Shown here piece after piece: positions 1,071 through 62,758 of a stretch of 64,000 bases of DNA. How positions within the stretch are numbered: position 1 is the stretch's first letter; each line of letters begins with the position of its first letter. A program made the position numbers and the translations under genes. The stretch is from Rufibacter roseolus. GTDB taxonomy: Bacteria; Bacteroidota; Bacteroidia; Cytophagales; Hymenobacteraceae. The notes under the pieces were generated by a model. It had not been told where the DNA came from. It saw only the letters and a program-made list of their open reading frames with translations, and searched no databases. Location: positions 372,001 through 436,000 of the forward strand of contig NZ_JAFMSU010000002.1 in the NCBI RefSeq assembly GCF_017916365.1. The letters are read 5' to 3'.

Positions 1071-1107
1071 CGTTTAGCGCCTTTTTCTTTGAAAACAGGT
1101 CTAAAAC
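1071..1107. repeat. Dispersed hairpin element (copy 1)
   Basis: Degenerate copy of the window-wide palindromic element: CGTTTAG on the left, GAAAACAGG near the centre, CTAAAAC on the right. It lies 25 bases past the stop of the plug-module gene. Confidence 0.6.
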
Positions 1108-1186
1108 CCTGAATTTAAGATCCTCTAACTGTTGGCAGTTTCTGCGGGATAGCTACCGCAAGTTGAATATTGTTTAAGGTTAACTA

Positions 1187-1233
1187 AAGCCGTTTTAGGC
1201 CTCCTTTTCTGAAAAGGGGCTTAAAACGGCTTT
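1187..1233 (+). terminator. Dispersed hairpin element (copy 2), terminator-like
   Basis: AAGCCGTTTTAGGCC pairs with GGCTTAAAACGGCTT across a TTTTCTGAAAA centre and is followed by TTTTC. It is a good copy of the dispersed hairpin family and can act as a Rho-independent terminator for the upstream gene. Confidence 0.75.
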
Positions 1234-1299
1234 TCATTTATAGGGCTTTCTCAATGTATTTGGTTTTCAAAGAGATTTGCAGAAGTGTGGGCGCAAATC

Positions 1300-1330
1300 T
1301 TGGATAGCGGAAGAGGTTTTTGTACCTTTG
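1300..1330 (+). promoter_or_regulatory. rpsA promoter (Bacteroidetes type)
   Basis: The -7 element TACCTTTG at 1323-1330 matches TAnnTTTG exactly. A TTGG at 1300-1303 stands 19 bases upstream in the -33 position. It predicts a leader of roughly 110 bases before the rpsA start. Confidence 0.7.
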
Positions 1331-1448
1331 CGCCGCGTTCAAGGTGAATGCCCCTGGCCCAATGTCTGGGAAAGGGATGTAAAATAAGCTGCGGCTTGGC
1401 AAGTGGTTCTGTGTCATGTCGTTATATTTTGTGAACCAGCATAGCAAT

Positions 1449-5167: not shown

Positions 5168-7807
5168 ATGAAAATCGCTGAACTACGCATTATGCGAGGA
5201 CCAAACTATTGGTCTGTAAAACACCCCAAAATTGTAGTGCTCAAACTGGACATGGATGAATTTGCCGGGGTGCTCACCACCGATATCCCCGGTTTCCCTG
5301 ACAGGCTGGAAACCATGTTCCCCGGAATGGTCCTGCACCGTAGCACCGAAGGCCAGGAGGGAGGCTACCTGAGAAGAGTAAGAGAAGAAGGCGTACCGCT
5401 GAGCAATGTAGTGGAGCACGTGGCATTGGAGCTGCAAACCCTGGGCGGCATGAACTCAGGCTTCGGCCGTACTTACCCCGCCCCACAGCCAGGTTTTGAA
5501 TACGTGGTATTTTCTTACCAGGAAGAGAAAGCAGGGGAGTATGCGGCGGAGGCAGCCATCAGGGTCACCACGGCCCTCGCCAGAAATGAACCATATGACA
5601 TTACCCCGGATGTAGAGGAACTGCACGAAATCCGCGAAGATGAACACATCGGGCCCAGTACTTATTCCATCGTCTCTGAGGCGGTGGCGCGGGGCATTCC
5701 TTATATCCGCCTGAACAAAAGCTCTCTTATTCAATTAGGCTACGGCGTGCACCAGAAGCGCATCCAGGCCACTATGACCTGCCGCACGGCTGCTTTTGCC
5801 GTGGAGATCGCCGGCGATAAGAGCGCCACCAAAGACATGCTGGCCGAGGCTGGCGTACCGGTGCCCAAAGGAGAGATCGTGTACACCGTAGAAGAACTCA
5901 GGGACGCTATCCAGTGGCTTGGGTACCCCATTGTGACCAAACCCCTGGACGGAAATCATGGCAAAGGCGCCGGTATCAATATCCGGAACTGGGAAGATGC
6001 CGTGGCTGGCTTTGAGGTAGCCCTGCAGTACTGCAAGGCTGACAAAGCCGTCATCGTAGAACAGTTCATCGAAGGCTATGACTTCCGGTTACTGGTGGTG
6101 AACAAGAAGTTTGTGGCGGCGGCTAAGCGCACTCCTGCCATGGTGGTGGGCGACGGCGCCTCTACCGTGCAGCAACTCATTGACCAGGTCAACAGCGATC
6201 CTCGCCGCGGGGTAGGCCACGAAAAGGTGCTCACCCGCATCAACGTGGACAAAGACACCTACGGCATGCTGGAGAAGAAAGGCTACACCTTGGATACCGT
6301 TGTGCCCGCAGGGGAGCAGCTCTTCCTGAAAAGCACCGCCAACCTCTCTACCGGAGGTACCGCCACCGACGTGACCGACCTGATTGACCCCTACAACGTA
6401 CTGATGGCCGAGCGAATTGCCGGCACCATTGGCCTGGATATCTGCGGGATTGACGTGGTGACCTCAGATATTGCCATTCCGTTACCCGAGGCCCGCGGTG
6501 CTGTGATTGAGGTGAATGCCGCGCCCGGCTTCCGGATGCACGTATCACCTACTGAGGGCTTGCCCCGCAACGTGGCAGATCCGGTGATTGAGATGCTCTT
6601 CCCGGACAATTGCCCTTCCCGTATTCCGATCATCGCTATCACAGGTACCAACGGTAAAACCACGACTACGCGCCTCATCGCGCATATGGTGAAATCGGTG
6701 GGCTACCAGGTTGGTTTCACTACCACAGACGGCATCTACATACAGGATACACTTTTGGAGAAAGGCGACACCACGGGCTCTAAAAGCGCCGAGTTTGTGT
6801 TGCGGGACCCTACCGTAAACTTCGCGGTATTAGAGTGCGCCCGGGGCGGGATGCTGCGCTCAGGCTTAGGCTTCCAGCAGTGCGACATTGGCATTGTAAC
6901 CAACGTGGCCGAAGACCACATGGGCCTCCGTGATATCAATACCCTGGAAGACATGGCCCGCGTGAAAGCCGTGGTGCCCAAAAGTGTAAGCAAAACCGGC
7001 TACGCCATCCTCAACGCCGATGATGACAACGTCTTCAACATGGCCAAGGAACTGGAATGTAAGGTGGCTTTCTTCAGTATGGACGAGAATAATCCGCGTA
7101 TCCTGAAGCATGTGGCCGAGGGTGGTTTGGCGGCCGTGTTTGAGAATGGTTTTATCTCTATTTTCAAAAACACCTACAAAATACGGGTAGACCGCGTAGC
7201 AGATATTCCGCTTACTTTTGGAGGGCGCGCCAAGTTCAATATTGAGAACGTATTGGCTGCTACGCTGGCCGGTTATGTTTCCCGCTTTGAGATATCAGAG
7301 ATCAAAACGGCGCTGCGTACGTTCCTGCCATCGGCCACCAAGACACCGGGCAGAATGAACATGTTCAAGTTCCCAACCTTTGAGGTGCTCGTAGACTATG
7401 CTCACAACCCGGCCGGTATGAAAGGGGTGGCTGACTTCCTGCAGAACGTGGATGCCCGCAAGCGCGTGGGTATTGTGGCTGGCGTAGGTGACCGCCGCAA
7501 CGAGGACATGGTGGAACTGGGTAAAATGGCGGCGCAGATGTTTGATGAGATCATCATCAGGTCAGACAAAGACCTGCGGGGCCGCACCGCCGAGGAAATC
7601 AACCATTACGTGATCCAGGGCATTGAGCAGGTTGACCCTAACAAACCTTATAAGGTAATCGGTCAGGAAATGGTGGCCATCGCCTACGCCCTGGAGCACG
7701 CAGAACGCAACTCCTTCATCACTATCTTCTCAGAGGATATTCCGGAGGCCATCAGAATGATTGAGAACTTCAAAGTAATCCAGGACCGGAGAGTGATGGT
7801 AGACTAG
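5168..7807 (+). CDS. cphA: Cyanophycin synthetase
   Basis: CphA makes multi-L-arginyl-poly-L-aspartate from Asp, Arg and ATP without a ribosome. The 879 residues fit the full-length enzyme. They comprise an N-terminal domain (about 1-160), an ATP-grasp domain (about 215-470, with VTKPLDGNHGKGAGI and EVNAAPGFRMH) and a C-terminal Mur-ligase-like domain with the P-loop GTNGKTTTTR near residue 492 and DYAHNPAGM near 743. Both ATP-using centres look intact. Preceded by cphB; a bidirectional terminator follows. The pairing with cphB argues that the product is true cyanophycin, but substrate choice cannot be read from sequence. Confidence 0.95.
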   Translation: MKIAELRIMRGPNYWSVKHPKIVVLKLDMDEFAGVLTTDIPGFPDRLETMFPGMVLHRSTEGQEGGYLRRVREEGVPLSNVVEHVALELQTLGGMNSGFGRTYPAPQPGFEYVVFSYQEEKAGEYAAEAAIRVTTALARNEPYDITPDVEELHEIREDEHIGPSTYSIVSEAVARGIPYIRLNKSSLIQLGYGVHQKRIQATMTCRTAAFAVEIAGDKSATKDMLAEAGVPVPKGEIVYTVEELRDAIQWLGYPIVTKPLDGNHGKGAGINIRNWEDAVAGFEVALQYCKADKAVIVEQFIEGYDFRLLVVNKKFVAAAKRTPAMVVGDGASTVQQLIDQVNSDPRRGVGHEKVLTRINVDKDTYGMLEKKGYTLDTVVPAGEQLFLKSTANLSTGGTATDVTDLIDPYNVLMAERIAGTIGLDICGIDVVTSDIAIPLPEARGAVIEVNAAPGFRMHVSPTEGLPRNVADPVIEMLFPDNCPSRIPIIAITGTNGKTTTTRLIAHMVKSVGYQVGFTTTDGIYIQDTLLEKGDTTGSKSAEFVLRDPTVNFAVLECARGGMLRSGLGFQQCDIGIVTNVAEDHMGLRDINTLEDMARVKAVVPKSVSKTGYAILNADDDNVFNMAKELECKVAFFSMDENNPRILKHVAEGGLAAVFENGFISIFKNTYKIRVDRVADIPLTFGGRAKFNIENVLAATLAGYVSRFEISEIKTALRTFLPSATKTPGRMNMFKFPTFEVLVDYAHNPAGMKGVADFLQNVDARKRVGIVAGVGDRRNEDMVELGKMAAQMFDEIIIRSDKDLRGRTAEEINHYVIQGIEQVDPNKPYKVIGQEMVAIAYALEHAERNSFITIFSEDIPEAIRMIENFKVIQDRRVMVD

Positions 7808-7817: not shown

Positions 7818-7937
7818 GGAGATTTGGAGATGTGAAAATTTGGAGATGATTGAATTAGCCATTTACAAATTTCCACATCTTCAAATCTCCTAATCACTTA
7901 ATCTCTCAATCACTCAATCATTCATTCACTCAATCAT
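7818..7937. repeat. Inverted repeat plus short tandem repeats after cphA
   Basis: The arms 7818-7841 and 7867-7890 are complementary at 22 of 24 positions (GGAGATTTGGAGATGTG on the left). They are followed by degenerate tandem words TCAATCAC/TCATTCAC from 7891 to 7937. The word ATTTGGAGATGTG...ATTTGGAGATG recurs in reverse orientation near 32031-32062 (about 24 of 27 matches). Confidence 0.7.
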
Positions 7938-7979
7938 AAAAATAGCCCCGAAACGTACCAACGTTTCGGGGCTATTTTT
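7938..7979. terminator. Bidirectional terminator cphA / coiled-coil gene
   Basis: A 19-base perfect stem (AAAAATAGCCCCGAAACGT with its complement) and a four-base loop. A/T runs on both sides serve the convergent genes. Confidence 0.93.
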
Positions 7980-7999
7980 ATGATCTGAAGTAGAAGCGG

Positions 8000-8941: not shown

Positions 8942-8987
8942 AGCGGATGAAGGTGGTTTAGGGTTTTTAAGGCACTACCTATTCTTA

Positions 8988-9018
8988 CAAAAATACGTTT
9001 TCATCTATCCTTTGCAAA
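8988..9018 (-). promoter_or_regulatory. Promoter of the coiled-coil gene
   Basis: On the minus strand TTTG (9015-9018), a 19-base spacer and TATTTTTG (8988-8995): an exact match to the Bacteroidetes primary-sigma consensus, about 47 bases before the ATG. Confidence 0.82.
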
Positions 9019-9046
9019 TAAGAGGGTAAAATACTTACTTCCGGGC

Positions 9047-9664: not shown

Positions 9665-9834
9665 AATTCTGTACTTTTGAGCCGAATGGATCATCAGGCC
9701 GTAGCATCCAGATAGTTGGCGAAACTATCTAATATGTTTTGGGCCCGATTTTATTAAATCAACCCCAAAAGGATCTTTCTGTATTTGTTGAGTACTTCTA
9801 GAAGCTAATTCTCAAGACCTATTCTTTTTACCAT

Positions 9835-10647: not shown

Positions 10648-10676
10648 AAAAGAGGATACCCCCGGCGAGAATAAGA

Positions 10677-10724
10677 AAACCTGTTTAGGGCTGTTTTGCA
10701 GAAATCAGCTTCTAAACGGGTTTT
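10677..10724. terminator. Dispersed hairpin element (copy 3)
   Basis: AAACCTGTTTAGGGCTG opposite CAGCTTCTAAACGGGTTT with a TTTTGCAGAAAT centre. It lies between convergent kdsA and a methyltransferase gene, with T tracts on both sides. Confidence 0.75.
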
Positions 10725-10744
10725 TGATTTTTATAATAAGCGAA

Positions 10745-11931: not shown

Positions 11932-12037
11932 GCGTGCCTTATTTTGGTATATTGGGAACAGGCTTTCTGGCCATTTAGTTTGACCAGCCGGATTCTAAAG
12001 TAAAAATACGCAAAAACCGTTAACCTATACCTCCCTT

Positions 12038-12705: not shown

Positions 12706-12755
12706 AAGCCTGTTTTCAGGCTGATTTTTGCAAATCAGCCTGAAAACAGGCTTTT
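12706..12755. terminator. Dispersed hairpin element (copy 4)
   Basis: AAGCCTGTTTTCAGGCTGAT opposite ATCAGCCTGAAAACAGGCTT. A nearly perfect stem of more than 20 pairs follows the ung stop by 6 bases. It lies between convergent genes and suits both as terminator. Confidence 0.85.
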
Positions 12756-13547: not shown

Positions 13548-13620
13548 CGCAGAAGATTTGAATGGTACAGCTGATTATAGTATACCAGTACAATCTACAA
13601 TTTTCAAGCTATAAAGAGCA

Positions 13621-13660
13621 CCGTTTCTCTCCTTGTTTCTAAAAATCAGCCCTAAAACGG
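13621..13660. repeat. Dispersed hairpin element (copy 5, degenerate)
   Basis: CCGTTTCTCTCC ... AAAATCAGCCCTAAAACGG. The right arm is good and the left arm decayed. Lies upstream of a methyltransferase and downstream of the lepB operon. Confidence 0.55.
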
Positions 13661-13728
13661 AATGCCCAACTTAGGTGAACCGCCAATGAGGGAAAAGTTG
13701 GATAAACCAGTAAGAAAGGTGCCAAAGA

Positions 13729-18740: not shown

Positions 18741-18792
18741 CTGTGTAAAGGCAAGGTAGACGATTAACTACAAGATCGAGCATACGCTTTTA

Positions 18793-18800
18793 CAAAGATA
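18793..18800 (-). promoter_or_regulatory. Putative -7 element of the hydrolase-par-lepB operon
   Basis: Minus strand TATCTTTG, exact TAnnTTTG, 52 bases upstream of the first ATG. The -33 box is weak. Confidence 0.6.
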
Positions 18801-18962
18801 AGGTAAAATGGAGAGAGACTTATTAACACTTTTAAGTTATTTATCCCCATTTTAGGTTAAAATCTGGCTTGGCAATCAGGTTGAATCAAATCAGCATAGT
18901 TGCTTGATCTTTATCTTCTTAGGTGCGCTGGCAAACGGTGTTAGTGAGACTATTTCTTGAGG

Positions 18963-19033
18963 TGGCAGGCACCTGTTTCCTTGATGTTCCACGGCTTTAC
19001 AGGCTTTCTTGCTACGGGTACAGGCACCTGCCA
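18963..19033. repeat. 71-base inverted-repeat element
   Basis: TGGCAGGCACCTGT at 18963-18976 and ACAGGCACCTGCCA at 19020-19033 are complementary at 12 of 14 positions around a 43-base interior. It lies in an 840-base gene-free stretch (18741-19581) between the par operon and yidC. The rest of that stretch holds two dispersed-hairpin copies and a C/G-rich repeat, and no credible gene. Confidence 0.55.
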
Positions 19034-19150
19034 AATTGGGTGCTGGATAATCGTTTCGGGCTCACTTTAGGGCATTCTTACATGGGAAGACAAGAGATCA
19101 GCTAAACAGGTCTGTGCTGGCTTCCCCCTTTGCAAAGCATTGCCCTAAAT

Positions 19151-19191
19151 GCCGTTTTAAGCCCATTTACGGCAAAATAAGCTCAAAACGG
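19151..19191. repeat. Dispersed hairpin element (copy 6)
   Basis: GCCGTTTTAAGCCC opposite GCTCAAAACGG, centre ATTTACGGCAAAAT. It is in the gene-free stretch, far from any stop codon. Confidence 0.65.
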
Positions 19192-19293
19192 TTGTCTATG
19201 CATTCTCGCTTGGAATCCGTGTTTTAGACCGCCTGAATGGCTTTCAAAATGGGTTCGTCTAGATTGGGATAGTGCGAAACCGGGAAAGTAGGG

Positions 19294-19322
19294 ATTCCCC
19301 TCTTTGGAGTAGATAGGGGTGG
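19294..19322. repeat. CCCC...GGGG intergenic repeat, copy A
   Basis: ATTCCCCTCTTTGGAG then TAGATAGGGGTGG. It resembles the sequence at 34285-34312. Confidence 0.45.
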
Positions 19323-19458
19323 TTTTTTGATCTTGGCAGAAGCCCGGCTAGAGGCTGATCTGTTTCAATGGCTTACAAGTTGATCGAGCCTTAAACAGCC
19401 CAAAACAACTCAACCACAAATCAAAATGATTGCCTTGAAGTGGGTGATTGAGTTAAAG

Positions 19459-19499
19459 TTGTTTTAAGTCCGTTGTCTTGTAAACAGTTGTAAAACAGG
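19459..19499. repeat. Dispersed hairpin element (decayed copy)
   Basis: GTTGTTTTAAGTCCGTTGTC then TTGTAAACAGTTGTAAAACAGG. Only the outline of the element remains. Confidence 0.4.
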
Positions 19500-19534
19500 A
19501 AGGTATCGATTGGGTGTAAAGGCGTATAAAACAA

Positions 19535-19562
19535 AAAAAGCCCGGTACAAACCGGGCTTTTT
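19535..19562 (-). terminator. yidC terminator
   Basis: AAAAAGCCCGGT-ACAA-ACCGGGCTTTTT, a perfect 12-base stem, 20 bases past the yidC stop on the minus strand. Confidence 0.93.
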
Positions 19563-19581
19563 CTCATTGGTGAAGTTGATC

Positions 19582-23082: not shown

Positions 23083-23147
23083 TTATTTGAACAGCAGGGA
23101 AAATGTTTGGCTTTGCCCTGAAAGTCCAACTTCTTAAAACGATACAG

Positions 23148-23189
23148 GGCGTTTTATAGCTGTTTTCACAGAATCAGGCCTGAATAGGC
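23148..23189. repeat. Dispersed hairpin element (copy 8)
   Basis: GGGCGTTTTATAGCTGTTTTC then AGAATCAGGCCTGAATAGGC. Imperfect arms. It lies between pyrG and the lipoprotein gene. Confidence 0.55.
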
Positions 23190-23245
23190 TTCCAAGGCTG
23201 TAGGCAGTCAGAATCTGCAAAAATCAACCGGAGGTCAATACCAGC

Positions 23246-23956
23246 TTAGCTGTTTTTGAGGAAGTCCTGCAGGCGCTGGCCCATTTCCTGGAGGGTGAGC
23301 ATCACGGCCTCCTGCTGGATGCGTCTTCTGGCTTCCTGCTGGTCCAACTCGTTCTCCTTTTTCTGACCAAGCATGTCTTTGGTGATGATGACCGAGAAAG
23401 GCACTATGCCGGTTCTTACGTCCAGCAGGAGCGCCTGCGTAGTGGCAAAGGCCTTGATGTCAGACTTGGAAAAGAGCTTGTACTGGGAGTACATGTCATG
23501 GGTAGAGGAATAGACCAGCACTAAGTCAGCCTGCATCCGCACGGCAGCTTCCCGCAGACCCGTGAAAGTGACCGGCTGAGGCAGAAGCAGGTCAGGGACA
23601 ATGGTCACCTTGGTTACTTTCCCGGATTTCTTCAGGTGGTCTTCCAGAAGATCGGCGTAGGCTTGCTGGCTTTTCTGGTAGGTCTCATCGGTCCACTGGT
23701 ACCTTTTTACCGCGGCGTTTTCCAGGTTCACCACCGCCACCCTTATGGGGGATGGCAGCTTGTAAGGCGCATGTAGCATCCGCTGGATGTTCTCCTCTGT
23801 AATGGTGGAGGCCTTGTCATTGAAGAGGGACTGGGTCAAGGGATCCACAAAAGAAATAAGCCCCTGTTGTTCCAAAGAAGGTCTCACCTCTGGTTGGGTA
23901 ACAGTACAGGCGCTCAGCAGAAGGCAGGAAAGGACAGCAGCGAGGTTTTGTTTCAT
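23246..23956 (-). CDS. Lipoprotein of unknown function
   Basis: The start ATG 23956 gives MKQNLAAVLSCLLLSACTVTQ with a lipobox (LLSAC), so the product is a lipoprotein of about 236 residues after processing. The body has alternating strands and helices: PYKLPSPIRVAVVNLENAA, ADLLEDHLKKSGKVTKVTIVPDLLLPQPVTFTGLREAAVRMQADLVLVYSSTHDMYS, and an Ala/Thr segment with LLLDVRTGIVPFSV. This resembles periplasmic TolB/CsgG-like N-terminal folds, but I cannot name it. It lies 69 bases downstream of the glycogen-binding-domain gene and probably belongs to the same transcript. Confidence 0.75.
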   Translation of the reverse strand: MKQNLAAVLSCLLLSACTVTQPEVRPSLEQQGLISFVDPLTQSLFNDKASTITEENIQRMLHAPYKLPSPIRVAVVNLENAAVKRYQWTDETYQKSQQAYADLLEDHLKKSGKVTKVTIVPDLLLPQPVTFTGLREAAVRMQADLVLVYSSTHDMYSQYKLFSKSDIKAFATTQALLLDVRTGIVPFSVIITKDMLGQKKENELDQQEARRRIQQEAVMLTLQEMGQRLQDFLKNS

Positions 23957-24025
23957 GGGTGTTTTGCGCAAAATGGCCTTAAAACAGACAAAGTCTGGCT
24001 GGAAAATCCTTGTTAAAATAAACAA

Positions 24026-26532: not shown

Positions 26533-26785
26533 ATAGAAAGGAGGTTGCTTTATGCTGTAGGGAAGTCTGGAGCCAGTATTTCGCAGGTCTGGGTTTGCCA
26601 AAGCAAAGTAGCATAAAAGATAGCAAAATCTTTATATTAGTGAAACAACCTTTTTGTATTTAACACAACATTAACGCCCTTGTCCTTTCCGGTTTTAGCT
26701 GAGGGAAATCTATTGACCGGTTCTCCTGGCAGAGAAAAAAGGAAGACATTCTTTGATTTCTGGTTACCCTATTTGCCTAAAGAAA

Positions 26786-26836
26786 TGCCCTGCGCTTTGG
26801 GCCTGTTTTAGAAAAGCAGGCTCAAAGCGCAGGGCA
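26786..26836. terminator. Dispersed hairpin element (copy 9)
   Basis: TGCCCTGCGCTTTG and CAAAGCGCAGGGCA form a perfect 14-base outer stem around the conserved GGCCTGTTTTAGAAAAGCAGG core. The gap 26533-26902 holds nothing else supportable. It is downstream of the 26903 gene on the minus strand. Confidence 0.85.
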
Positions 26837-26902
26837 GTTGAAAAGTTTTAACTCTGTTTCCCGTGCGTTTTTTATAAAACGCCCCCTGAACGGCAAATTC
26901 AA

Positions 26903-29939: not shown

Positions 29940-29949
29940 AAGATAAATT

Positions 29950-29992
29950 CCCGTTTAGGACCTGTTTCTAGTGAAACTGGCTCTAAACGGGG
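29950..29992 (+). terminator. Dispersed hairpin element (copy 10)
   Basis: CCCGTTTAGGACCTGTTTC and GAAACTGGCTCTAAACGGG around TAGT, between convergent genes and 10 bases after a stop. Confidence 0.82.
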
Positions 29993-31040: not shown

Positions 31041-31061
31041 GTGTTTTTTTAAGCTGAACTA

Positions 31062-31092
31062 TTGAGAATGTAAAAGTAATAACTTACTTTTG
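31062..31092 (+). promoter_or_regulatory. Promoter of the small basic protein gene
   Basis: TTG at 31062-31064, 20-base spacer and TACTTTTG at 31085-31092 (exact TAnnTTTG), 24 bases before the ATG. Confidence 0.75.
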
Positions 31093-31116
31093 CGATTCAA
31101 TTTTAAATATTGACCG

Positions 31117-31296: not shown

Positions 31297-31367
31297 TTCT
31301 GCGTTTTTTCGTTCGCCTACTGCCTTTCGGCAAACTGTACGCGATTACTCTTACTACAAGATAGTTG

Positions 31368-31900: not shown

Positions 31901-32106
31901 AATGTGCTAATTATTTAAGGTGCTGATGTGCTATTCAGAATACCTGTTGGGCAGATAAGGTAGGATACGGCCTCACCGGAGCTTCAGTTTTCGGCTTGTT
32001 TTATGGAAACAAGCCGAAAACTGAGGTTTTCATCTCCAAATCTGCACATCCCCAAATTTCCAATTTAAAGAAATAGCACATCAGCACATTAATCAATTAG
32101 CACATT
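31901..32106. repeat. Nested inverted repeat containing a dispersed hairpin
   Basis: The outer arms 31901-31935 and 32072-32106 are complementary at 32 of 35 positions. The right arm runs into the pyrE stop codon. Between them lie hairpin element copy 11 (31984-32024) and a reversed copy of the word found after cphA (32031-32062). Confidence 0.82.
31984..32024. terminator. Dispersed hairpin element (copy 11)
   Basis: TCAGTTTTCGGCTTGTTT and AAACAAGCCGAAAACTGA, an 18-base perfect stem with a TATGG loop. Confidence 0.85.
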
Positions 32107-33973: not shown

Positions 33974-34080
33974 AGGGTAGCAGGTGAGAGGTGGGTTTTA
34001 AGAATTTCCGGCGGTGAAGATGCTGAAAATATTCTGTTCCTGTACCCCTCAGATTCCCCAAATGTTTTCACCTGCGCTGA

Positions 34081-34116
34081 TTTAAGCCTCTTTTCCGGAA
34101 AACAGGCTCTAAACAG
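34081..34116. repeat. Dispersed hairpin element (copy 12)
   Basis: TTTAAGCCTCTTTTCCGGAA then AACAGGCTCTAAA. It is in the gene-free stretch 33974-34608. Confidence 0.65.
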
Positions 34117-34200
34117 TTGGTGTAATTCCAAAATATTAACCCTTTTTTGTAGAGGCAATTCCATGTGGTTGCCCCCATGCGTCTCTTACCGCAACTCAAG

Positions 34201-34461
34201 TTGTTGGTGATAAAACCAACAAAGGCGACTTTTCAATAGCACATTACCAAGCTTATCAAATAATGGAAACAAGCACGTATTCCGTCCCCCTTTGAAGGGG
34301 TAGGGGGATGACAGTACCGTTAGAAGAACCATCAGTACCGGCTAAGAAACAATTCAAAATGATTCTCGGGAATACCATGACCTGCTGGTGTCAACGCCCC
34401 TCTGCGCTCTCCTCTAGGGGAGAATCCTCGGTTCCATTTGTTGGTGTTATTACCAATAGTA
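34201..34461. repeat. Gene-free stretch with mixed small inverted repeats
   Basis: A TTGTTGGT/ACCAACAA hairpin (34202-34223), a related TTGGT/ACCAA hairpin (34441-34457), and CCCC...GGGG repeats B (34285-34312) and C (around 34397-34422). The flanking TTGTTGGTG sequences in direct orientation may mark the ends of one decayed element of about 260 bases. No gene is supportable between 33974 and 34608. Confidence 0.45.
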
Positions 34462-34532
34462 TGTATTGCGGTGGCCTGCGCAAGGGTAACCACAAGTGAT
34501 TGCTACTACATTTCTAAATCGTACTCAAAGTA

Positions 34533-34581
34533 AAAGTGCGTTTGTGCCTGCTTATGCAAAAACAGGCACAAAACGCACTTT
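34533..34581. terminator. Dispersed hairpin element (copy 13)
   Basis: AAAGTGCGTTTGTGCCTG and CAGGCACAAAACGCACTTT form a long stem, 27 bases past the response-regulator stop on the minus strand. Confidence 0.85.
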
Positions 34582-34608
34582 CTATTTAATGGCTTAAGGT
34601 AGCCTGGT

Positions 34609-40852: not shown

Positions 40853-40944
40853 TAATATTATTCTTCTTTTTTAGTTGTTTTTTGCCAACAAAAGTTTAGT
40901 TTTTCAGTTTATAGCTTTGCAAGTTCTTCTGAACTGCTCCCTTG

Positions 40945-40984
40945 CTGTTTTACGTCTCATTTCCTCAAAATAGCCTGAAAACGC
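40945..40984. repeat. Dispersed hairpin element (copy 14, degenerate)
   Basis: CTGTTTTACGTCTCATTTCC then AAAATAGCCTGAAAACGCC. Downstream of the M1 peptidase. Confidence 0.5.
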
Positions 40985-41062
40985 CCTGTCTACCGGTCAG
41001 ATGTATTCCATCTGCAGACAGATAAACCATTGTTGGATATATAAATTGTACCTTATAAAACT

Positions 41063-42949: not shown

Positions 42950-43155
42950 GTCCGTACTTTTTGCTAATGCCTCGGTATATACTGACAATCAACTGGTTAA
43001 AATTTGTATTTAAAAGATGACCAGCATTTTAGACCTGATTATAATCCCGGGAATAATACAGCAAACCTCAGGGAGTGAGGGTTAAAGAGGAAAGGATAGG
43101 AGGATACCATCTGCCAAAGCCCATACGGGTCGGTAGCCAAACAATTGGTTTAGAT

Positions 43156-43195
43156 TGTTTTAAGCCCTGTTTTCCTTAACCTGGCCAGAAACAGG
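43156..43195. repeat. Dispersed hairpin element (copy 15)
   Basis: TGTTTTAAGCCCTGTTTTCC then CTGGCCAGAAACAGG. It is downstream of the NlpC/P60 gene (minus strand). 42950-43155 otherwise shows nothing recognisable. Confidence 0.5.
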
Positions 43196-43205
43196 ATGGC
43201 AGAAA

Positions 43206-43933: not shown

Positions 43934-45730
43934 ATGCAAAAAATAATCCATTCCTGGGCGGCCGGAGTGTTTCTGCTGCTGGCAGTGGCTTTTTCAGCCT
44001 CCGCGGCGCCTAAAATCTCTTACCGCCTTTCCATGCCCGAGCCCCAGACCCACTACTTTGAAGTGGAGATGCGGCTGGAGGACTTCAAAGGCAAAAACCT
44101 GGACCTTACCATGCCGGTGTGGGCGCCGGGCTCTTACCTCATAAGGGAGTTTCCCAAGAACGTGGAGGCTTTTGAGGCTTACGTAGGCAGTAACCGGGTT
44201 TCCTCAGGCAAACTGGACAAGAACACCTGGCGGGTAGCCTCCGGCGGCAAAGACGTCACCGTTAAATACAAGGTCTATGCCTTTGAACTGAGCGTGCGCA
44301 CCAGTTTCATTGACGCAAGCCATGGCTATTTGAACGGTACCAGCGTGTTCATGTACCCCGAGGGCCACAAAGACCTGCCGTCCACCGTTACGGTGGTGCC
44401 TTTCAAAAGCTGGAGCAAAGTGTCTACGGGCCTTCCGGCGGTAGCTGGGCAGCCTTTCACCTTTAAAGCGCTCAACTATGACGTCCTCGCCGATTCTCCC
44501 TTTGAGATAGGCAACCATGAGATCCTCTCCTTTAAAAGCAACGGGGTGAAGCACGACGTAGCCATGTACGGCGACGCCAACTATGATGCCCAGCGCCTCA
44601 CCGCCGATATGAAGAAGGTGACCGAAGAAGCGGCCAAGGTGTTCGGGGAATTGCCGGTGAACTACTACCTGTTCATCGTGCACAACCTGGCCAGCGGCAG
44701 CGGCGGACTGGAGCACCTTAACTCTACCACTTTGTCTACCACCCGTACCGCCTACGGCACCGAGCGAGGCTACAACGGTTTCCTGAACCTGGTGGCCCAC
44801 GAGTATTTCCATCTGTGGAACGTGAAGCGCCTGCGCCCCATCGCCCTGGGACCGTTTGACTATAACCAGGAGAACTATTCCCGTATGTTGTGGGTCTCTG
44901 AAGGTTTCACCTCATACTACGCCGATGTGATCATGCGCCGGGCCGGGTTCACTTCTGAACGGGAGCATCTGGAGAAGATCGGGAGCAGCATCACCAGCGT
45001 GGAGAACACCCCGGGAAACAAAGTAGTATCAGCGGCGCAGTCCAGCTTTGATGCCTGGATCAAGCAGTACCGCCCAGATGAGAACTCCTACAACACGCAT
45101 CTCTCTTACTACAGCAAGGGCGGGCTCCTGGGCATGCTCCTGGACATGGAGATCCTGAAGGCCACCAACGGCTCCAAAAGCCTGGACGATGCCATGAAAG
45201 CCATGTATGATGAGTACTACAAGAAAAAGAAGCGTGGCTTCACCGATCAGGAATTCCAGCAGGGCATAGAGAAGTTCACGGGCCGGTCTATGGATGATTT
45301 CTTCCGCCGCTACGTGTACGGTGTGGAAACCCCGGATTATAACACCTTCTTCAGCGCCGTAGGCATCTCCCTTACGGATGTGAACAAAGGCACCAATAAT
45401 CCCTTGTTGGGCGCGGCCATCTCTACCACCACCGGCAAACCCGTAGTGACCACCGTTACCCGCAACGGCAGTGCCTGGCAGTCGGGCCTCAACGTGAACG
45501 ATGAAATCATAGGCATGAACGGTTACCGCGTGGCGGATGACATCAACAAATCCATACCGGCCTTCTCCGTTGGCGATGTGCTGGAACTGGTGGTGAGCCG
45601 CAGCGGGCAGCTGATGATCCTGCCGGTGACGCTTCTCAAAGACCAAACCATCAAGCTCCGCGCTGATTTGGCGCCAAACGCCACCGAGGTTCAAAAGAAA
45701 AGCTACCTGAAGTGGACCAGCGCTAAATAG
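43934..45730 (+). CDS. M61 family metallopeptidase
   Basis: The start ATG 43934 opens the signal peptide MQKIIHSWAAGVFLLLAVAFSASA; an ATG eleven codons earlier is rejected. The 598 residues have an N-terminal beta domain (about 30-190) and a thermolysin-like catalytic domain with LVAHEYFHLWNVKRLRP (HExxH) and the third ligand region MLWVSEGFTSYYADV. A C-terminal PDZ domain follows (about 505-580, VTTVTRNGSAWQSGLNVNDEIIGMNGYRV). M61 enzymes prefer N-terminal Gly or Ala. Periplasmic. It ends in a 48-base palindromic terminator. Confidence 0.93.
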   Translation: MQKIIHSWAAGVFLLLAVAFSASAAPKISYRLSMPEPQTHYFEVEMRLEDFKGKNLDLTMPVWAPGSYLIREFPKNVEAFEAYVGSNRVSSGKLDKNTWRVASGGKDVTVKYKVYAFELSVRTSFIDASHGYLNGTSVFMYPEGHKDLPSTVTVVPFKSWSKVSTGLPAVAGQPFTFKALNYDVLADSPFEIGNHEILSFKSNGVKHDVAMYGDANYDAQRLTADMKKVTEEAAKVFGELPVNYYLFIVHNLASGSGGLEHLNSTTLSTTRTAYGTERGYNGFLNLVAHEYFHLWNVKRLRPIALGPFDYNQENYSRMLWVSEGFTSYYADVIMRRAGFTSEREHLEKIGSSITSVENTPGNKVVSAAQSSFDAWIKQYRPDENSYNTHLSYYSKGGLLGMLLDMEILKATNGSKSLDDAMKAMYDEYYKKKKRGFTDQEFQQGIEKFTGRSMDDFFRRYVYGVETPDYNTFFSAVGISLTDVNKGTNNPLLGAAISTTTGKPVVTTVTRNGSAWQSGLNVNDEIIGMNGYRVADDINKSIPAFSVGDVLELVVSRSGQLMILPVTLLKDQTIKLRADLAPNATEVQKKSYLKWTSAK

Positions 45731-45768
45731 CGCTTCAGGGCTGCTTTTTCAAAATCAGCCTTAAAACG
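45731..45768. repeat. Dispersed hairpin element (copy 16)
   Basis: CGCTTCAGGGCTGCTTTTTC then AAAATCAGCCTTAAAACG, directly at the M61 stop codon. Confidence 0.65.
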
Positions 45769-45774
45769 ATTTTC

Positions 45775-45822
45775 CCTAAAACAGAAAGGCCGCTCTCATG
45801 AGAGCGGCCTTTCTGTTTTAGG
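45775..45822. terminator. Perfect 48-base palindrome, bidirectional terminator
   Basis: The half site CCTAAAACAGAAAGGCCGCT plus CTCA is repeated exactly in reverse complement with no loop spacer (centre 45798/45799). It lies between convergent M61 peptidase and kup genes and merges with another dispersed element at 45815-45850. Confidence 0.95.
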
Positions 45823-45856
45823 ACTGTTTTCCGGGATATGGCCCTAAAATAAGCGC

Positions 45857-49977: not shown

Positions 49978-50007
49978 AAAAGGAGCCTGCATTTGCAGAC
50001 TCCTTTC
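49978..50007 (-). terminator. icmF terminator
   Basis: AAAGGAGCCTGC and GCAGACTCCTTT with one mismatch, T tract on the minus strand, 43 bases past the icmF stop. A half copy of the dispersed element (AAAAACAGGCCCAAAATG) follows at 50010-50028. Confidence 0.82.
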
Positions 50008-50049
50008 ATAAAAACAGGCCCAAAATGAATTTAAGCGCTGGGCTAATTA

Positions 50050-53457: not shown

Positions 53458-53630
53458 TTGTTAGCTTAGCTGGTGAACGTTGTGCGAAAGTACGAATTTT
53501 AGACGAATGGTGGAGGCGCAATCCTGAGTGCCGGGCGAGCATGTTTAAAAGCAGGCCACTCTACCATGCTTTACGGATTTACAGAAGAAGAGAATGGGGC
53601 CAAAGCCTCAGAAAAAGCGCTTGGCGCAGT

Positions 53631-53675
53631 CTGGCAGTTTAGGCCTTATTTTTCCTGAAACAGGCTCAAACCAGG
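53631..53675. repeat. Dispersed hairpin element (copy 19)
   Basis: CTGGCAGTTTAGGCC opposite AGGCTCAAACCAGG, centre TTTTTCCTGAAAC. It lies between divergent icmF and the TRIC-type gene, so it is not at a 3' end. Confidence 0.65.
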
Positions 53676-53739
53676 TTTCGTTCACAGACGGTTGCTGCTA
53701 CCAACCCGCTTTTGCGTAGTTTACCAAAAAAATCTGCCT

Positions 53740-54366: not shown

Positions 54367-54370
54367 TATT

Positions 54371-54408
54371 CGTTTTTCAGCCGTTTTCAGATAAATAGTC
54401 TTGAAACG
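54371..54408. repeat. Dispersed hairpin element (copy 20)
   Basis: CGTTTTTCAGCCGTTTTC then ATAGTCTTGAAACG, 5 bases after the TRIC-type stop, between convergent genes. Confidence 0.6.
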
Positions 54409-54426
54409 GATACAGGCGGCGAGTTA

Positions 54427-54990: not shown

Positions 54991-55169
54991 ATCAGTTCAA
55001 TTTCAACACGGGTTATACGGCTGCTGCGAAAAGAAGAGGTTTTAAACAAAAGAAAATTCATTTAAACCAAGCCAGTTTATTGAGCTAAGTCTGTATTTAT
55101 GCTTATTTTCAGAAAACAGGCCCAAAAGAGGCCAGAAAACGTAAAAAGTAAGTCCAGGCTCCCAGATGC

Positions 55170-57817: not shown

Positions 57818-57826
57818 GCTACAAAT

Positions 57827-57862
57827 ATTTTGGGGCTGTTTTCCTGAAATCGGGCTTGAAAC
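57827..57862. repeat. Dispersed hairpin element (copy 22)
   Basis: ATTTTGGGGCTGTTTTCC then TGAAATCGGGCTTGAAAC, 9 bases after the DUF4184 stop. Confidence 0.6.
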
Positions 57863-57980
57863 AGAGCCTTATCTTTTCAACTCCAAAGGATGCAAGATAG
57901 AGGCATTACTGAGTCTGTTTAGGCTAGGACCTAACTTTGCGGGTTTTCCGGCCTGACTACCTCCAGAAACAATCCCCCTT

Positions 57981-58019
57981 CGTTTTTAAAGCATTTTCAG
58001 AAAATCGGAAACAAAACAG
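57981..58019. repeat. Dispersed hairpin element (copy 23, degenerate)
   Basis: CGTTTTTAAAGCATTTTC then AGAAAATCGGAAACAAAAC. It lies upstream of the TetR promoter. Confidence 0.45.
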
Positions 58020-60076: not shown

Positions 60077-60094
60077 TCACCGCATACAACCCAA

Positions 60095-61135
60095 ATGGAA
60101 ACTGAGAAAAAGAAATCGAACAAAGTAATTCCCATCATCCTGGGCCTAGTCCTGATCATTGGCGGATTCTTTGGCGTGAAAGAATACCTGTATTTCAGCA
60201 AGCACGAGGACACCGATGACGCCCAGATTGACGCCGATATCAGCCCAGTGGTGGCGCGTGTGAGCGGCTACGTGGATACCATCATGTTTGAGGAAAACAC
60301 CCACGTAACGCAAGGCCAGGTGCTGGTGAAACTGGATGACCGTGACTACGCCATCAAAGTAGAGCAGGCAATGGCCGCTTCACAAGGCGCCAGTGCCAGC
60401 ACCGGCGTAAACCAGTCTCAGATTACCGCCACCGCTGCCACTGCTACCACCGCCAAGGCGAACATTGAGGCCACCCGCGTGCGTCTCTGGAAAGCAACCC
60501 AGGACTACAACCGCTTCGCTAATTTGATCAAAGACGGTTCTATCACCCAGCAGCAGTTTGACCAGGCCAAAGCCGACCGCGACGTGGCCCAGGCAAACTA
60601 CCAGGCCGCGCAGGACCAGTACAAAGCCGCTTTGCAGCAGGTAGGTACTACCCGCTCGCAACTGGCGGTGACCAACACGGGCGTAAACCAGCGCCAGGCC
60701 GATGTGGACTTTGCCAAACTGCAGATGTCTTACACCACCATCACGGCGCCGGCCAGCGGCATTGTATCGAATAAAAACGTGCAGAAAGGTCAGTTGGTGC
60801 AAGCCGGCCAGAGCCTGTTCTCCATCGTGAATGACAACAGCATCTTCGTAACCGCCAATTTCAAGGAAACCCAACTGGAGAACATCCGCGAGGGACAGAA
60901 AGTGAAGATTGAGGTAGACGCTTTTCCTGAGGCCGATGTACAAGGGGAGATCTATAACTTCTCACCGGCCACCGGCGCCAAGTTCTCTCTGCTGCCCCCG
61001 GATAACGCTACCGGTAACTTCGTGAAAGTGGTACAGCGCGTGCCCGTGAAAATCAAAATCAAGGCCTCTCCTGAACTGATGAAGAAACTGCGCCCAGGCA
61101 TGAGCGTGAAAACATCGGTCCTGACGCAAGAATAA
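60095..61135 (+). CDS. HlyD/EmrA-type periplasmic adaptor
   Basis: The 346 residues have one N-terminal membrane helix (about 9-28, VIPIILGLVLIIGGFFGV) and lipoyl half-motifs (DTDDAQIDADISPVVARVSGYVDTIMFEENTHVTQGQVLVKLDDRDY). An alpha-hairpin coiled coil (about 90-210, Ala/Gln/Thr-rich) and the second lipoyl and beta-barrel parts (YTTITAPASGIVSNKNVQKGQLVQAGQSLFSIVNDNSIFVTANFKETQLENIREGQKVKI) complete it. It bridges the inner-membrane MFS pump to TolC. 18 bases after tolC; 3 before the pump gene. Confidence 0.95.
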   Translation: METEKKKSNKVIPIILGLVLIIGGFFGVKEYLYFSKHEDTDDAQIDADISPVVARVSGYVDTIMFEENTHVTQGQVLVKLDDRDYAIKVEQAMAASQGASASTGVNQSQITATAATATTAKANIEATRVRLWKATQDYNRFANLIKDGSITQQQFDQAKADRDVAQANYQAAQDQYKAALQQVGTTRSQLAVTNTGVNQRQADVDFAKLQMSYTTITAPASGIVSNKNVQKGQLVQAGQSLFSIVNDNSIFVTANFKETQLENIREGQKVKIEVDAFPEADVQGEIYNFSPATGAKFSLLPPDNATGNFVKVVQRVPVKIKIKASPELMKKLRPGMSVKTSVLTQE

Positions 61136-61138
61136 CCT

Positions 61139-62686
61139 ATGGCTGAAACTGGATTAAGAAAATGGGCCATCACCATTACGGTGATCTCGGCGGCGCTGCT
61201 GGAGCTCATTGACACCACCATCGTAAACGTGGCCATGCCGCAGATCCAGGGCAATCTAGGCGCGACGCTGGAAGACGTAGCCATGATTGTGACCGGTTAC
61301 GCGGTGGCCAACGTGATCATTCTGCCTATGTCGGGGTGGTTGGGGAGCCGATTTGGCCGCAAGAACTACTTCCTGTTCTCCATCATTGTGTTCACCCTGG
61401 TGTCTTTCCTTTGCGGGAACGCCACCAGTCTGGAGGAACTGGTGATCTTCAGGATTCTGCAGGGGCTGGCCGGGGGCGGATTACTGTCCACCTCGCAGTC
61501 CATCCTGCTGGAGGCCTGGCCCAAAGAGCAGGTAGGAACCGCGACCGCCTTGTTCGGGTTGGGCGCCGTGGTAGGGCCTACTTTGGGACCCACCATCGGG
61601 GGCTACATCACCGATAACTACTCCTGGCCCTGGATTTTCTACGTGAACATTCCGGTGGGCATTATGGCGGCCATTGCCACCTACCTGTTCATCAAGAAGA
61701 CACCCCGAGAGCTAGGCGGCAAACCCGTGGACTGGTGGGGCATTGCGCTGCTGGCCATTGCCGTGGGCAGTCTGCAGATTGTGCTGGAGAAAGGCGAGAC
61801 CGAGGATTGGTTTGCAGCTACCTACATCATCGTGCTGTCGGCAACCGCCGTGATCGGGACGCTGCTCTTCATTTGGCGCGAGCTCACGTTTGAGTACCCC
61901 ATTGTCAATTTCAAGATCATGCGCCACCGGAGTTTCTCGGTGGGCATGTTCACCTCTTTTGTGCTGGGTTTCGGTTTATACAGCTCCATGTTCGTGTTCC
62001 CGGTGTTCACGCAGGGGTTGCTGGGCTTCACGGCGCAGCAATCGGGTAAACTGTTGCTCCCGGGCGGACTGTTCACCATCATGATGATGCCGTTCATCGG
62101 GAAGATGCTGCAGCGCGGCGTACCGGCCCAGTTCATGGCGACGGGCGGGATGCTCTTGTTCTTTGTCTTCGCGATGATGATGAACCACTCCACCTTGCTC
62201 TCAGGCACCGGCGACTTCTTTTGGCCACTAGCCATCAGGGGAATCGGGATGGCGCTGCTGTTCGTGCCTTTGACCACGCTGGCGATCCAGGACCTGAAAG
62301 GACATGAGGTAGGGCAGGGAACTGGTCTGAACAACATGATGCGCCAGCTGGGCGGCTCCTTCGGGATTGCGGCCTTGACTACGCTCATCCACGTGCGCCA
62401 GGGCTTCCACCGCAACAACCTGCTGGTGAACATCAACGAGTATAACCCCGTGTTCACCCAACGCCTGAACGGCCTCATGCAGAACTTCCTGAGCAAAGGC
62501 TACACGTTCATGGATGCGCAGAAAGCCGCCTACAAAGCCATTGAAGGGATGGTGATGAAGCAGACCGCCCTCTTGTCCTACACCGATGCCTTCTGGGTAT
62601 CGGGGATGATCATGCTTTGCTCCATTCCGCTGCTCTACCTGCAGAAGTTCAAGAAGAACTCCAACGTGCCGGTAGACGTGCATTGA
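61139..62686 (+). CDS. DHA2/EmrB-type MFS drug exporter
   Basis: The 515 residues have 14 predicted membrane segments. DHA2 signatures are LELIDTTIVNVAMPQIQGNLGATLEDVAMIVTGYAVANVIILPMSGWLGSRFGRKNYF (motif A GWLGSRFGRK), RILQGLAGGGLLSTSQSILLEAWP, GPTLGPTIGGYITDNYSWPWIFYVNIPVGI (motif C-like GPxxGPxxGG) and FGIAALTTL near the end. Proton-driven export of hydrophobic drugs is the expected role. Last gene of tetR-tolC-emrA-emrB; followed by a hairpin element. Confidence 0.95.
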   Translation: MAETGLRKWAITITVISAALLELIDTTIVNVAMPQIQGNLGATLEDVAMIVTGYAVANVIILPMSGWLGSRFGRKNYFLFSIIVFTLVSFLCGNATSLEELVIFRILQGLAGGGLLSTSQSILLEAWPKEQVGTATALFGLGAVVGPTLGPTIGGYITDNYSWPWIFYVNIPVGIMAAIATYLFIKKTPRELGGKPVDWWGIALLAIAVGSLQIVLEKGETEDWFAATYIIVLSATAVIGTLLFIWRELTFEYPIVNFKIMRHRSFSVGMFTSFVLGFGLYSSMFVFPVFTQGLLGFTAQQSGKLLLPGGLFTIMMMPFIGKMLQRGVPAQFMATGGMLLFFVFAMMMNHSTLLSGTGDFFWPLAIRGIGMALLFVPLTTLAIQDLKGHEVGQGTGLNNMMRQLGGSFGIAALTTLIHVRQGFHRNNLLVNINEYNPVFTQRLNGLMQNFLSKGYTFMDAQKAAYKAIEGMVMKQTALLSYTDAFWVSGMIMLCSIPLLYLQKFKKNSNVPVDVH

Positions 62687-62710
62687 TCTAACCTGAACAC
62701 CGATAATCAG

Positions 62711-62758
62711 AAATCCCTTTCGGGCCTATTTTCCCAAAAACAGCTTCGAAAGGGATTT
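62711..62758. terminator. Dispersed hairpin element (copy 24)
   Basis: AAATCCCTTTCG and CGAAAGGGATTT form a perfect 12-base outer stem around GGCCTATTTTCCCAAAAACAG, then TTTCTTTT. It terminates the efflux operon. Confidence 0.85.

Follow-up and report, generated by a model that had tools for sequence, protein, structure and literature searches.

Palindromic copies in the window

The window analysed here, 64,000 nucleotides of a contig of Rufibacter roseolus, carries a family of DNA palindromes of about 44 bp. A sequence-only reading had listed 21 places as one family of intergenic hairpins, and the family was recovered by a covariance model, R1, to which 20 of the 21 correspond at E <= 0.25, 13 of these reaching E < 0.01; the remaining place, 23148, was found by a pair-matrix scan only. 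R1 was built from 15 copies, of which eight (marked below as training set) come from the window and match by construction. Moreover, the family proved larger than listed, with R1 adding 9732, 23946, 49987, 55089 and a match at 51278 that lies inside a gene. The features are as follows (G004 is another Rufibacter genome).

1068..1110, strand not given: degenerate copy (R1 E 0.0023)
1188..1231: strong-hairpin copy, 22-nt arms 86% complementary (R1 54 bits, training set; repeat I6; aligned copy in G004)
9732..9774: degenerate copy, absent from the earlier list (R1 E 0.0055 on the + strand; 9737-9770 on the - strand, E 0.0026; gap filled in 12/15 species)
10679..10721: copy between convergent genes (R1 43 bits, training set; gap filled in 14/15 species)
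12708..12751: copy with a 22-bp perfect stem, 7 nt past the ung stop (R1 55 bits, training set; repeat I5; gap filled in 6/6 species)
13619..13662: degenerate copy (R1 E 0.021; not called in G004)
19150..19193: copy distant from any called stop codon (R1 E 3.5e-5; gap 18741-19581 filled in 15/16 species)
23147..23190: degenerate copy (no R1 match at E <= 1; pair-matrix hit)
23946..23989: degenerate copy, absent from the earlier list (R1 E 0.0067; aligned copy in G004)
26790..26832: copy with a long outer stem, 27-nt arms 26783-26809 and 26813-26839, 89% complementary (R1 49 bits, not in training set; repeat I4)
29949..29992: copy between convergent genes (R1 52 bits, training set; aligned copy in G004)
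31983..32025: copy with an 18-bp perfect stem (R1 38 bits, training set; repeat I10; gap filled in 13/14 species)
34075..34118: copy (R1 E 1.5e-5, not in training set; gap 33974-34608 filled in 9/9 species)
34536..34578: copy sharing gap 33974-34608 with the preceding one (R1 49 bits, training set)
40943..40986: degenerate copy (R1 E 0.18; gap filled in 6/10 species)
43153..43196: degenerate copy (R1 E 0.012; gap filled in 10/10 species)
45728..45771: copy (R1 48 bits, training set; gap 45731-45856 filled in 9/10 species)
45775..45822: ordinary 24-bp perfect terminator-like stem, flanked by two copies in an abutting arrangement, its 3' end overlapping the copy at 45811..45854 (repeat I2)
45811..45854: degenerate copy in the same gap as 45728..45771 (R1 E 0.23)
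49987..50030: weak copy, absent from the earlier list (R1 E 0.077; gap filled in 5/9 species)
53638..53670: weak copy in a divergent gap (R1 E 0.098; gap filled in 8/8 species; 78-79 nt from the left gene in 7/8)
54368..54411: degenerate copy (R1 E 0.0044)
55089..55132: weak copy, absent from the earlier list (R1 E 0.037)
57823..57866: degenerate copy (R1 E 0.5 over 57823-57866 on the - strand; E 0.017 over 57828-57861 on the + strand)
57978..58016: weak copy (R1 E 0.019)
62713..62756: copy with a complementary outer stem (R1 51 bits, training set; repeat I11)

Most of the listed hairpins had been placed within 30 bases of a stop codon; with our own gene calls this is true of 10 of the 21. At the Rfam gathering score the window gives only a tRNA and no family for the palindromes, and loci L217 and L224 give only matches under that score. 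Among the matches listed in a literature search, none deals with palindromic repeats in Rufibacter or in Hymenobacteraceae.

Arms, centre and covariation

In its general form the palindrome consists of a 20-nt arm, nnCCGTTTTnGGnCTGTTTT, and its reverse complement around a 4-bp centre, the 5' arm being T-rich and the 3' arm A-rich. Of 497 arm pairs from regions of four further Rufibacter genomes (G006, G013, G007 and G014), 489 have a spacing of exactly 4, as against same-length loops in only 39 of 125 ordinary terminator stems; the window's own genome, G000, is looser, with this spacing in 132 of 168 pairs. No arm match in the four regions lies outside a copy (0/281, 0/185, 0/138 and 0/146, respectively), while in G000 32 of 269 do so, with 6 expected. 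This rigid spacing of two half-sites agrees with what is expected of a dimeric DNA-protein binding site, the binding protein itself being putative.

The claim of covariation within copies was borne out, and strongly: 83.5% of cells are paired as against 71.3% after shuffling, and the covariation score is 0.356 as against 0.161, neither value being reached in any of 500 shuffles, in an alignment that was fitted to the structure and may contain both strands of one copy. The long complementary outer stems described earlier exist in some copies, including both that were cited as examples (26786 and 62711), but the average excess is modest: when copies are chosen by their inner 14 pairs, observed and expected pairing at arm offsets 0-3 in G000 are 0.32/0.25, 0.41/0.25, 0.40/0.32 and 0.47/0.33. 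In G014 a small excess extends to about 11 bases outside the arm.

Copy number and genus range

Extrapolation from regional scans gives an estimate of 1,500-2,300 copies per genome in Rufibacter. In the 464 kb that surround the window the pair-matrix scan gives 181 copies, as against none in a dinucleotide shuffle and four in the reversed sequence, so that the family is far commoner than in shuffled DNA; the density in regions of five genomes is 0.33-0.42 copies per kb. Among 200 Hymenobacteraceae genomes searched with the covariance model, as the sequence-only reading had proposed, each of the 16 Rufibacter genomes has 91-107 matches (at most 107 candidates being scored per genome), and 12 of the 184 others have 1-4. 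No copies were found in the orthologous gaps of the 22 outgroup loci examined. Palindromes counted without regard to motif reach 0.13-0.32 per kb in 16 Rufibacter regions and 0-0.26 per kb in 17 outgroup loci; such densities do not distinguish the genus, which only the sequence of the element does. The palindrome was probably already present in the common ancestor of Rufibacter.

Hits within called genes make up 27 of 181 in one scan of G000 and 31 of 195 in another, and in most of the listed cases the coding sequence runs on through the hit, which appears to be a weak look-alike. With its isolated arms, looser spacing and in-gene hits, G000 is less tidy than the other genomes, in which few hits lie inside genes.

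Placement, conservation and dialects

The copies are mostly intergenic, with a peak directly after stop codons. Among convergent gaps 73% contain a copy, compared with 50% among tandem and 31% (66/211) among divergent ones; 103 of 351 copies lie at most 20 nt from the upstream stop and 13 at most 20 nt from the downstream start, with 48.5 expected in either case.

The same orthologous gaps are filled across the genus, even where the flanks are nearly randomised, and the distance of copies from genes is often similar between species. Agreement of occupancy over 25 orthologous gaps is 0.857, compared with a mean of 0.608 and a maximum of 0.646 in 300 shuffles. Between G007 and G014, whose proteins are about 90% identical, 60 gaps are filled in both species, 5 in one and 71 in neither; core identity is 0.833 (53 pairs) and that of the 10-nt flanks 0.454, with a baseline of 0.27.

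The single conserved core described earlier did not hold up, as the arms vary both within one genome and between species. The arms predict the species in 0.381 of 365 copies, compared with 0.064 with shuffled labels (29/30 copies correctly assigned in G013), whereas the flanks do so in only 0.077 of 364. In G005, G006, G014, G007 and G013 a copy clearly resembles the other copies of its genome more than its orthologs; in G002 and G008 the two similarities are about equal, and in the remaining 9 of 16 species the orthologs are closer. Thus arm dialects are present in several species and are not general across the genus. In a comparison of gene conversion with selection, the outer stem and loop retain a memory of descent only somewhat above that of paralogs.

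A selfish REP-like palindrome, still copying into or converting old copies, would explain the dialects as successive master sequences and the conserved gaps as the only tolerated sites. The species-homogeneous copies with sharp ends, in G013 especially, and the similarity of arms within a copy are consistent with it, and where a gap lies between genes without a counterpart in the sister region, a copy is present in 4/21 cases in G014 and 9/17 in G007, so some copies may be newer. However, gains and losses are rare (5/136 gaps) despite far-diverged flanks, gene offsets are often similar between species, and no clean empty site was found among the differing G007/G014 gaps inspected, a set to which three long gaps do not belong. 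As to a transposase, Y1_Tnp matches (E <= 0.001) occur in 15 of 16 Rufibacter genomes, yet G007 (one contig, 99% complete) has palindromes and no Y1_Tnp match. Around 22 Y1_Tnp loci, of 45 matches, copies flank some on both sides at irregular distances and are absent from L116 and L118; the 42 copies in 71 kb around such loci are denser than in the five regions. A link of the palindrome to a RAYT transposase is therefore not clear, as the association is irregular, and we regard a still active selfish element as possible, though on the unlikely side. The earlier suggestion of a palindromic repeat with a conserved protein-binding core fits better than the RNA reading, but there is little sign of current mobility.

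Tests of an RNA hairpin

If the element worked as an RNA hairpin, either terminating transcription or stabilising RNA 3' ends in this lineage, this would agree with the preference for convergent over tandem over divergent gaps, the stop-codon peak, the strong stems predicted in several copies and the modest T enrichment downstream. Ordinary 3' stem-loops have a strong excess of G-U over A-C mismatches on the sense strand: 233 stems of the same regions outside the family have 154 GU and 47 AC mismatches, and the 166 with a T-rich tail have 118 and 20. In tandem gaps the palindromes have 737 GU and 762 AC (563 copies), and the 187 copies with at least 16 of 20 Watson-Crick pairs have 113 and 93 (p 0.185). 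Selection of the palindrome as an RNA hairpin on the transcribed strand is thus not supported (113:93 versus 154:47 in the control). In better-paired copies the G-U share is 0.54-0.57 (p 0.06-0.46), slightly above one half, and a small RNA component may remain. Mismatch bias on the + strand, a proxy for the replication strand, is not significant in any of the five regions.

The T fraction in the 10 nt 3' of a copy is 0.32-0.42 in tandem and convergent gaps, the upper value between convergent genes, a weak enrichment, and only 3-4 copies per region themselves satisfy the criterion for an ordinary terminator. Copies often adjoin ordinary terminators: 66 of 240 terminator-copy pairs overlap, by up to 9 nt, and given this contact the palindrome may have a role in transcription termination. 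An apparent avoidance of copy-bearing gaps by classical terminators (CMH OR 0.31, p 9e-5) was rejected as an artefact, since masking a copy also hid the T-tract of a touching terminator; without masking, no significant depletion is seen in the five regions pooled (OR 0.77, p 0.18), with one of ten strata alone at p 0.03. In outgroup loci ordinary terminators occupy 22 of 54 non-divergent gaps. The lack of a clear G-U bias, the rigid centre, the filled divergent gaps, the weak T enrichment and the absence of isolated arms from the regions of four genomes weaken the terminator or RNA-stability reading offered earlier, and we consider it improbable.

Relation to known systems

REP elements, BIMEs and REPINs are short, mostly intergenic palindromes of high copy number that follow genes and lie in unidirectional or convergent gaps (PMC3733652). 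The Rufibacter palindromes share the short length, high copy number, mostly intergenic position and placement downstream of genes, and fall under a broad definition of REP-like elements by these features. In contrast to REP elements, BIMEs and REPINs, they have 20-bp arms, a rigid 4-bp centre and a consensus without a GTAG or CGTC tag, lack a regular transposase association, fill the same gaps genus-wide and form dialects in several species at conserved sites. A GTAG-type tag is absent from the symmetrised consensus of 16 species, where symmetrising could hide a one-sided tag, and no one-sided tag is apparent in the copies printed for four species. The likeness to CGTC-tagged REPs is that no dedicated transposase is known for these (PMC3733652); they differ in their 8-9 bp stems, CGTC tag and tails, the Rufibacter element having a symmetric 20-bp arm and no tag. 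Intrinsic terminators are likewise stem-loops at gene ends, and many Rufibacter copies touch one; the differences are the T-rich 5' and A-rich 3' arms, the weak T enrichment after the stem, the rigid centre and the lack of a clear sense-strand G-U bias.

DNA uptake sequences occur in very many dispersed copies, and in Neisseriaceae paired sites double as terminators. Their spelling differs by species (PMC3630211), and the Rufibacter element resembles them in this and in its very many dispersed motifs. A DNA uptake system with dialects, its paired sites doubling as terminators, would account for the very high copy number, the dialects in some species and the paired sites near terminators, but it is very unlikely, because the element is a rigid, obligate palindrome with no isolated arms in four genome regions and few in-gene hits outside G000. 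Neutral relics of a single ancestral burst, alike only through quasi-palindrome mutation, would suit the degenerate copies of G000 and are equally implausible, as 60 of 65 occupied gaps are kept in both G007 and G014 while the flanks are far diverged, and some species have dialects.

Interpretation

The best explanation, to which we assign a probability of about 0.5, is a genus-specific double-stranded DNA palindrome that is placed much like REP/BIME elements, maintained in situ, and probably recognised by a putative symmetric DNA-binding factor. The places kept across species, together with a spelling of their own in several species, suggest a DNA-reading protein rather than an RNA signal. 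The palindromes would be maintained mainly at transcription-unit ends, their spelling having drifted to a shared species-specific form in several species. E. coli BIMEs are said to serve gyrase and IHF, and the Rufibacter palindrome may similarly be recognised at the DNA level by a symmetric, dimeric factor, for example a nucleoid, topology or insulator protein; drift in the specificity of that factor would produce the species dialects. Covariation within copies is not predicted by independent half-site recognition, so that either structure (a cruciform) or copying must contribute; as far as the covariation goes, the earlier statement that it is a structure that is selected or copied is fair. 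The two arms of a copy may be kept alike by quasi-palindrome correction, in which one arm serves as template for the other, or by a requirement to form a cruciform. More tentatively, and with distinctly less confidence, we propose that Rufibacter has an architectural or insulator protein of its own, which would read some two thousand palindromes at transcription-unit ends, protein and sites drifting together to give dialects at fixed sites.

Short intergenic palindromes are an old puzzle, having been seen as selfish, structural or RNA signals. Here these options can be told apart to some extent from sequence alone, since positions are conserved, several species spell their copies in concert, the geometry is rigid, and strand symmetry was tested against a control that worked. 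The comparison of G-U with A-C mismatches could serve for any REP-like family. If a protein reads these sites, that protein would mark transcription-unit ends throughout the Rufibacter genome and offer a natural experiment in the co-evolution of a regulator with about two thousand sites.

Detection and Range of the Palindrome Family

The covariance model R1 (44 positions, 20 pairs) describes a palindrome of about 44 bp, with two 20-nt arms around a 4-bp centre, and was trained on 15 copies, namely eight from the window, three from elsewhere in the same genome (G000), and four from R. immobilis. The hairpin family that the sequence-only reading had proposed was recovered by R1 at 20 of its 21 places at E ≤ 0.25 in the window, the source of eight training copies, and further window places were matched as well. 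The window Ung shares 93% identity with its counterpart in Rufibacter immobilis MCC P1, and genome G005 was placed in the same genus as G000; the host is accordingly treated as a Rufibacter (Hymenobacteraceae, Bacteroidota).

With a home-made pair matrix, G000 yielded 181 copies over 464 kb (dinucleotide shuffle 0, reversed sequence 4) and G006 yielded 129 over 400 kb (0 and 1, respectively). Retrained on all 16 species, the matrix found 195 copies in 464 kb of G000, 134 in 400 kb of G006, 198 in 470 kb of G013, 97 in 270 kb of G007, and 102 in 270 kb of G014, and the controls in these five regions gave 0 in shuffles and 0–1 in reversed sequence. Extrapolation from regions covering about 6–10% of each genome gives roughly 1,500–2,300 copies per genome. 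Weak family-like matches also occur inside called genes, 31 of the 195 in the G000 regions (L130–L149 and the window) and fewer, 6–11 each, in the regions of the other four genomes.

Among 59 relatives searched with R1, with up to the best 107 candidates scored, the 16 Rufibacter genomes had 91–107 matches each at E ≤ 0.01; six of the 43 genomes outside the genus had 1–3, and none more. A family-level search of 200 genomes drawn from a larger group gave 27–31 matches in each of the 16 Rufibacter genomes, with the best 31 scored, and 1–4 matches at E ≤ 0.001 in 12 of the 184 others, two of which reached a best E near 1e-9. The orthologous gaps were free of copies at all 22 outgroup loci compared around ung.

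Placement Relative to Genes and Terminators

Intergenic gaps of at least 75 bp were compared in the five regions, with genes called by our own caller at a score ≥ 20. A copy is present in 132 of 180 convergent gaps, in 309 of 615 tandem gaps, and in 66 of 211 divergent gaps. Uniform placement would put 48.5 of the 351 tandem-gap copies in the 20 nt next to the upstream stop and as many in the 20 nt next to the downstream start; the observed counts are 103 and 13, respectively. The earlier statement that most of the 21 places lie within 30 bases of a stop codon was not borne out, as only 10 are that close to a called stop. Many copies touch an ordinary terminator, and there the T-rich start of the arm is the terminator's T-tract. 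The family may have descended from a bidirectional terminator, as hinted by family-like spelling in a terminator-like stem with A-first arms, seen at window positions 7933–7984 and in region L012 at 5932–5972. A similar A-first stem adjoins a copy in G007.

RNA Hairpin or DNA Site

If the sense transcript folded into a hairpin, G-U wobble should be better tolerated in it than A-C. The 563 tandem-gap copies found by a strand-symmetric detector and turned to the sense strand held 737 G-U and 762 A-C mismatches. No clear G-U excess emerged when the count was limited to copies in which 16 or more of the 20 pairs are Watson-Crick (113 versus 93, p = 0.185) or 14 or more (297 versus 252, p = 0.06). 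Ordinary stem-loops downstream of stops in such gaps, chosen by a symmetric criterion, gave 154 versus 47, and those with a T-rich tail 118 versus 20; therefore the test has power. In the palindrome family an RNA signature is absent or, at most, faint.

In a spacing scan that scored each arm on its own, the arms stood 4 nt apart, no more and no less, in 489 of 497 pairs from the regions of four genomes and in 132 of 168 from G000, compared with 39 of 125 ordinary terminator loops of that length; the arm matrix had been trained on copies whose detection favoured a spacing of 4 by 2 bits. Isolated arms numbered 0/281, 0/185, 0/138, and 0/146 matches in four regions, at a threshold that leaves out the weakest quarter of true arms, and 32/269 (6 expected) in G000, where copies are more degenerate and the threshold was lower.

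The covariation within copies that the sequence-only reading had noted was borne out: in alignment A3 (150 of 156 matches from the G000 regions, where a single copy may be counted on both strands), 83.5% of cells were paired versus 71.3% after shuffling, and 454 versus 180 were changed on both sides. Complementarity of the outermost bases was upheld in part, with excess pairing in the outer arm when copies were chosen by their inner 14 pairs and only a small excess beyond the arm, reaching furthest in G014. The two arms of one copy thus match each other more than the arms of other copies. Since a clear RNA signature is missing, we attribute the covariation to a DNA-level cause, which could be arm-templated correction, cruciform formation, or copying.

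Conservation of Place and the Self-Copying Alternative

Pairwise agreement in occupancy, taken over 25 window gaps for which six or more species have a syntenic counterpart, was 0.857, versus 0.608 when shuffled within gap class (maximum 0.646 of 300). Six of seven divergent window gaps were empty in every species compared. Widely filled gaps include:

10648–10744, a copy in 14 of 15 species
31896–32104, a copy in 13 of 14 species
53458–53739, divergent, a copy in 8 of 8 species, 78–79 nt from the left gene in seven

In G007 and G014, whose proteins are about 90% identical, 60 of 136 syntenic gaps were filled in both, 5 in one only, and 71 in neither. In 53 one-to-one pairs, core arm identity was 0.833, scarcely higher than the 0.786 of non-orthologous copies, and identity in the adjacent 10 nt was 0.454 (baseline 0.27). 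The palindrome has therefore persisted in surroundings that are largely randomised. Eight such G000/G004 pairs gave 0.711 for the core and 0.406 for the flanks (baseline near 0.29). G000 and G004 have almost the same sequence in some copy-less window gaps, namely 8942–9046, 11932–12037, and 31041–31397 (the last may contain a small gene missed by our caller), and copy-bearing gaps are often difficult to align. In the gap matching 105939–105993 of G007b, G007 has one copy and G014 three (L162–L165, L239–L248), whose repeats take in some flanking sequence, as in local duplication.

The main rival is a palindrome that copies itself. Recent transposition driven by a RAYT is disfavoured by the low turnover of filled gaps, by the similar offsets of copies from genes between species, and by one single-contig genome with no match to Y1_Tnp, the RAYT-like transposase domain. 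A past role of RAYTs is possible: Y1_Tnp matches occur in 15 of 16 genomes, and around 22 of the matching loci (of 45 matches) 42 copies lie in 71 kb, above background density, though at irregular distances. A RAYT-like G000 gene (L009, 1408–1833) has on both sides a different repeat, visible in the flanking open-frame translations, with no resemblance to the palindromes.

BIMEs, a known class of repeats, are bound by gyrase and IHF. In PMC3733652, GTAG-tagged REPs have stems of 6–13 bp and CGTC-tagged ones of 8–9 bp, and REPs sit mostly between unidirectional and convergent genes; this placement is shared by the Rufibacter palindromes, which, however, lack the tags described there and have another stem architecture. 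REPIN populations and dialects of DNA uptake sequences are the subjects of PMC8049555 and PMC3630211, respectively. A search of open-licence papers turned up none that deals with repeats of this kind in Rufibacter or Hymenobacteraceae.

Species Dialects and the Proposed Mechanism

From the arms alone, 0.381 of 365 copies were assigned to the correct one of 16 species, versus 0.064 with shuffled labels and 0.077 from flanks; G013 reached 29 of 30, and several close species did poorly (G000 3/23, G015 1/12). In G005, G006, G014, G007, and G013, copies within a genome differ clearly less than orthologs; in G002 and G008 the two differences are about the same, and in the remaining nine species copies within a genome differ more. 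Pooled over species, the mean arm difference is 0.277 between paralogs, 0.309 between orthologs, and 0.324 between unrelated copies. Dialects thus characterise certain lineages and do not extend to all species. In the G013 region L166–L169, the arm types GGGCTC and GGCTCC stand one base out of register in the same copies, as if an imperfect palindrome had been made perfect by arm copying.

Our preferred reading, at roughly even odds, is that the palindrome is kept in place as a DNA site recognised by a symmetric factor; the half of this proposal with the better support is that the element works at the level of DNA and not of RNA. A putative protein would read the palindrome as DNA, and drift of that protein would produce the dialects.
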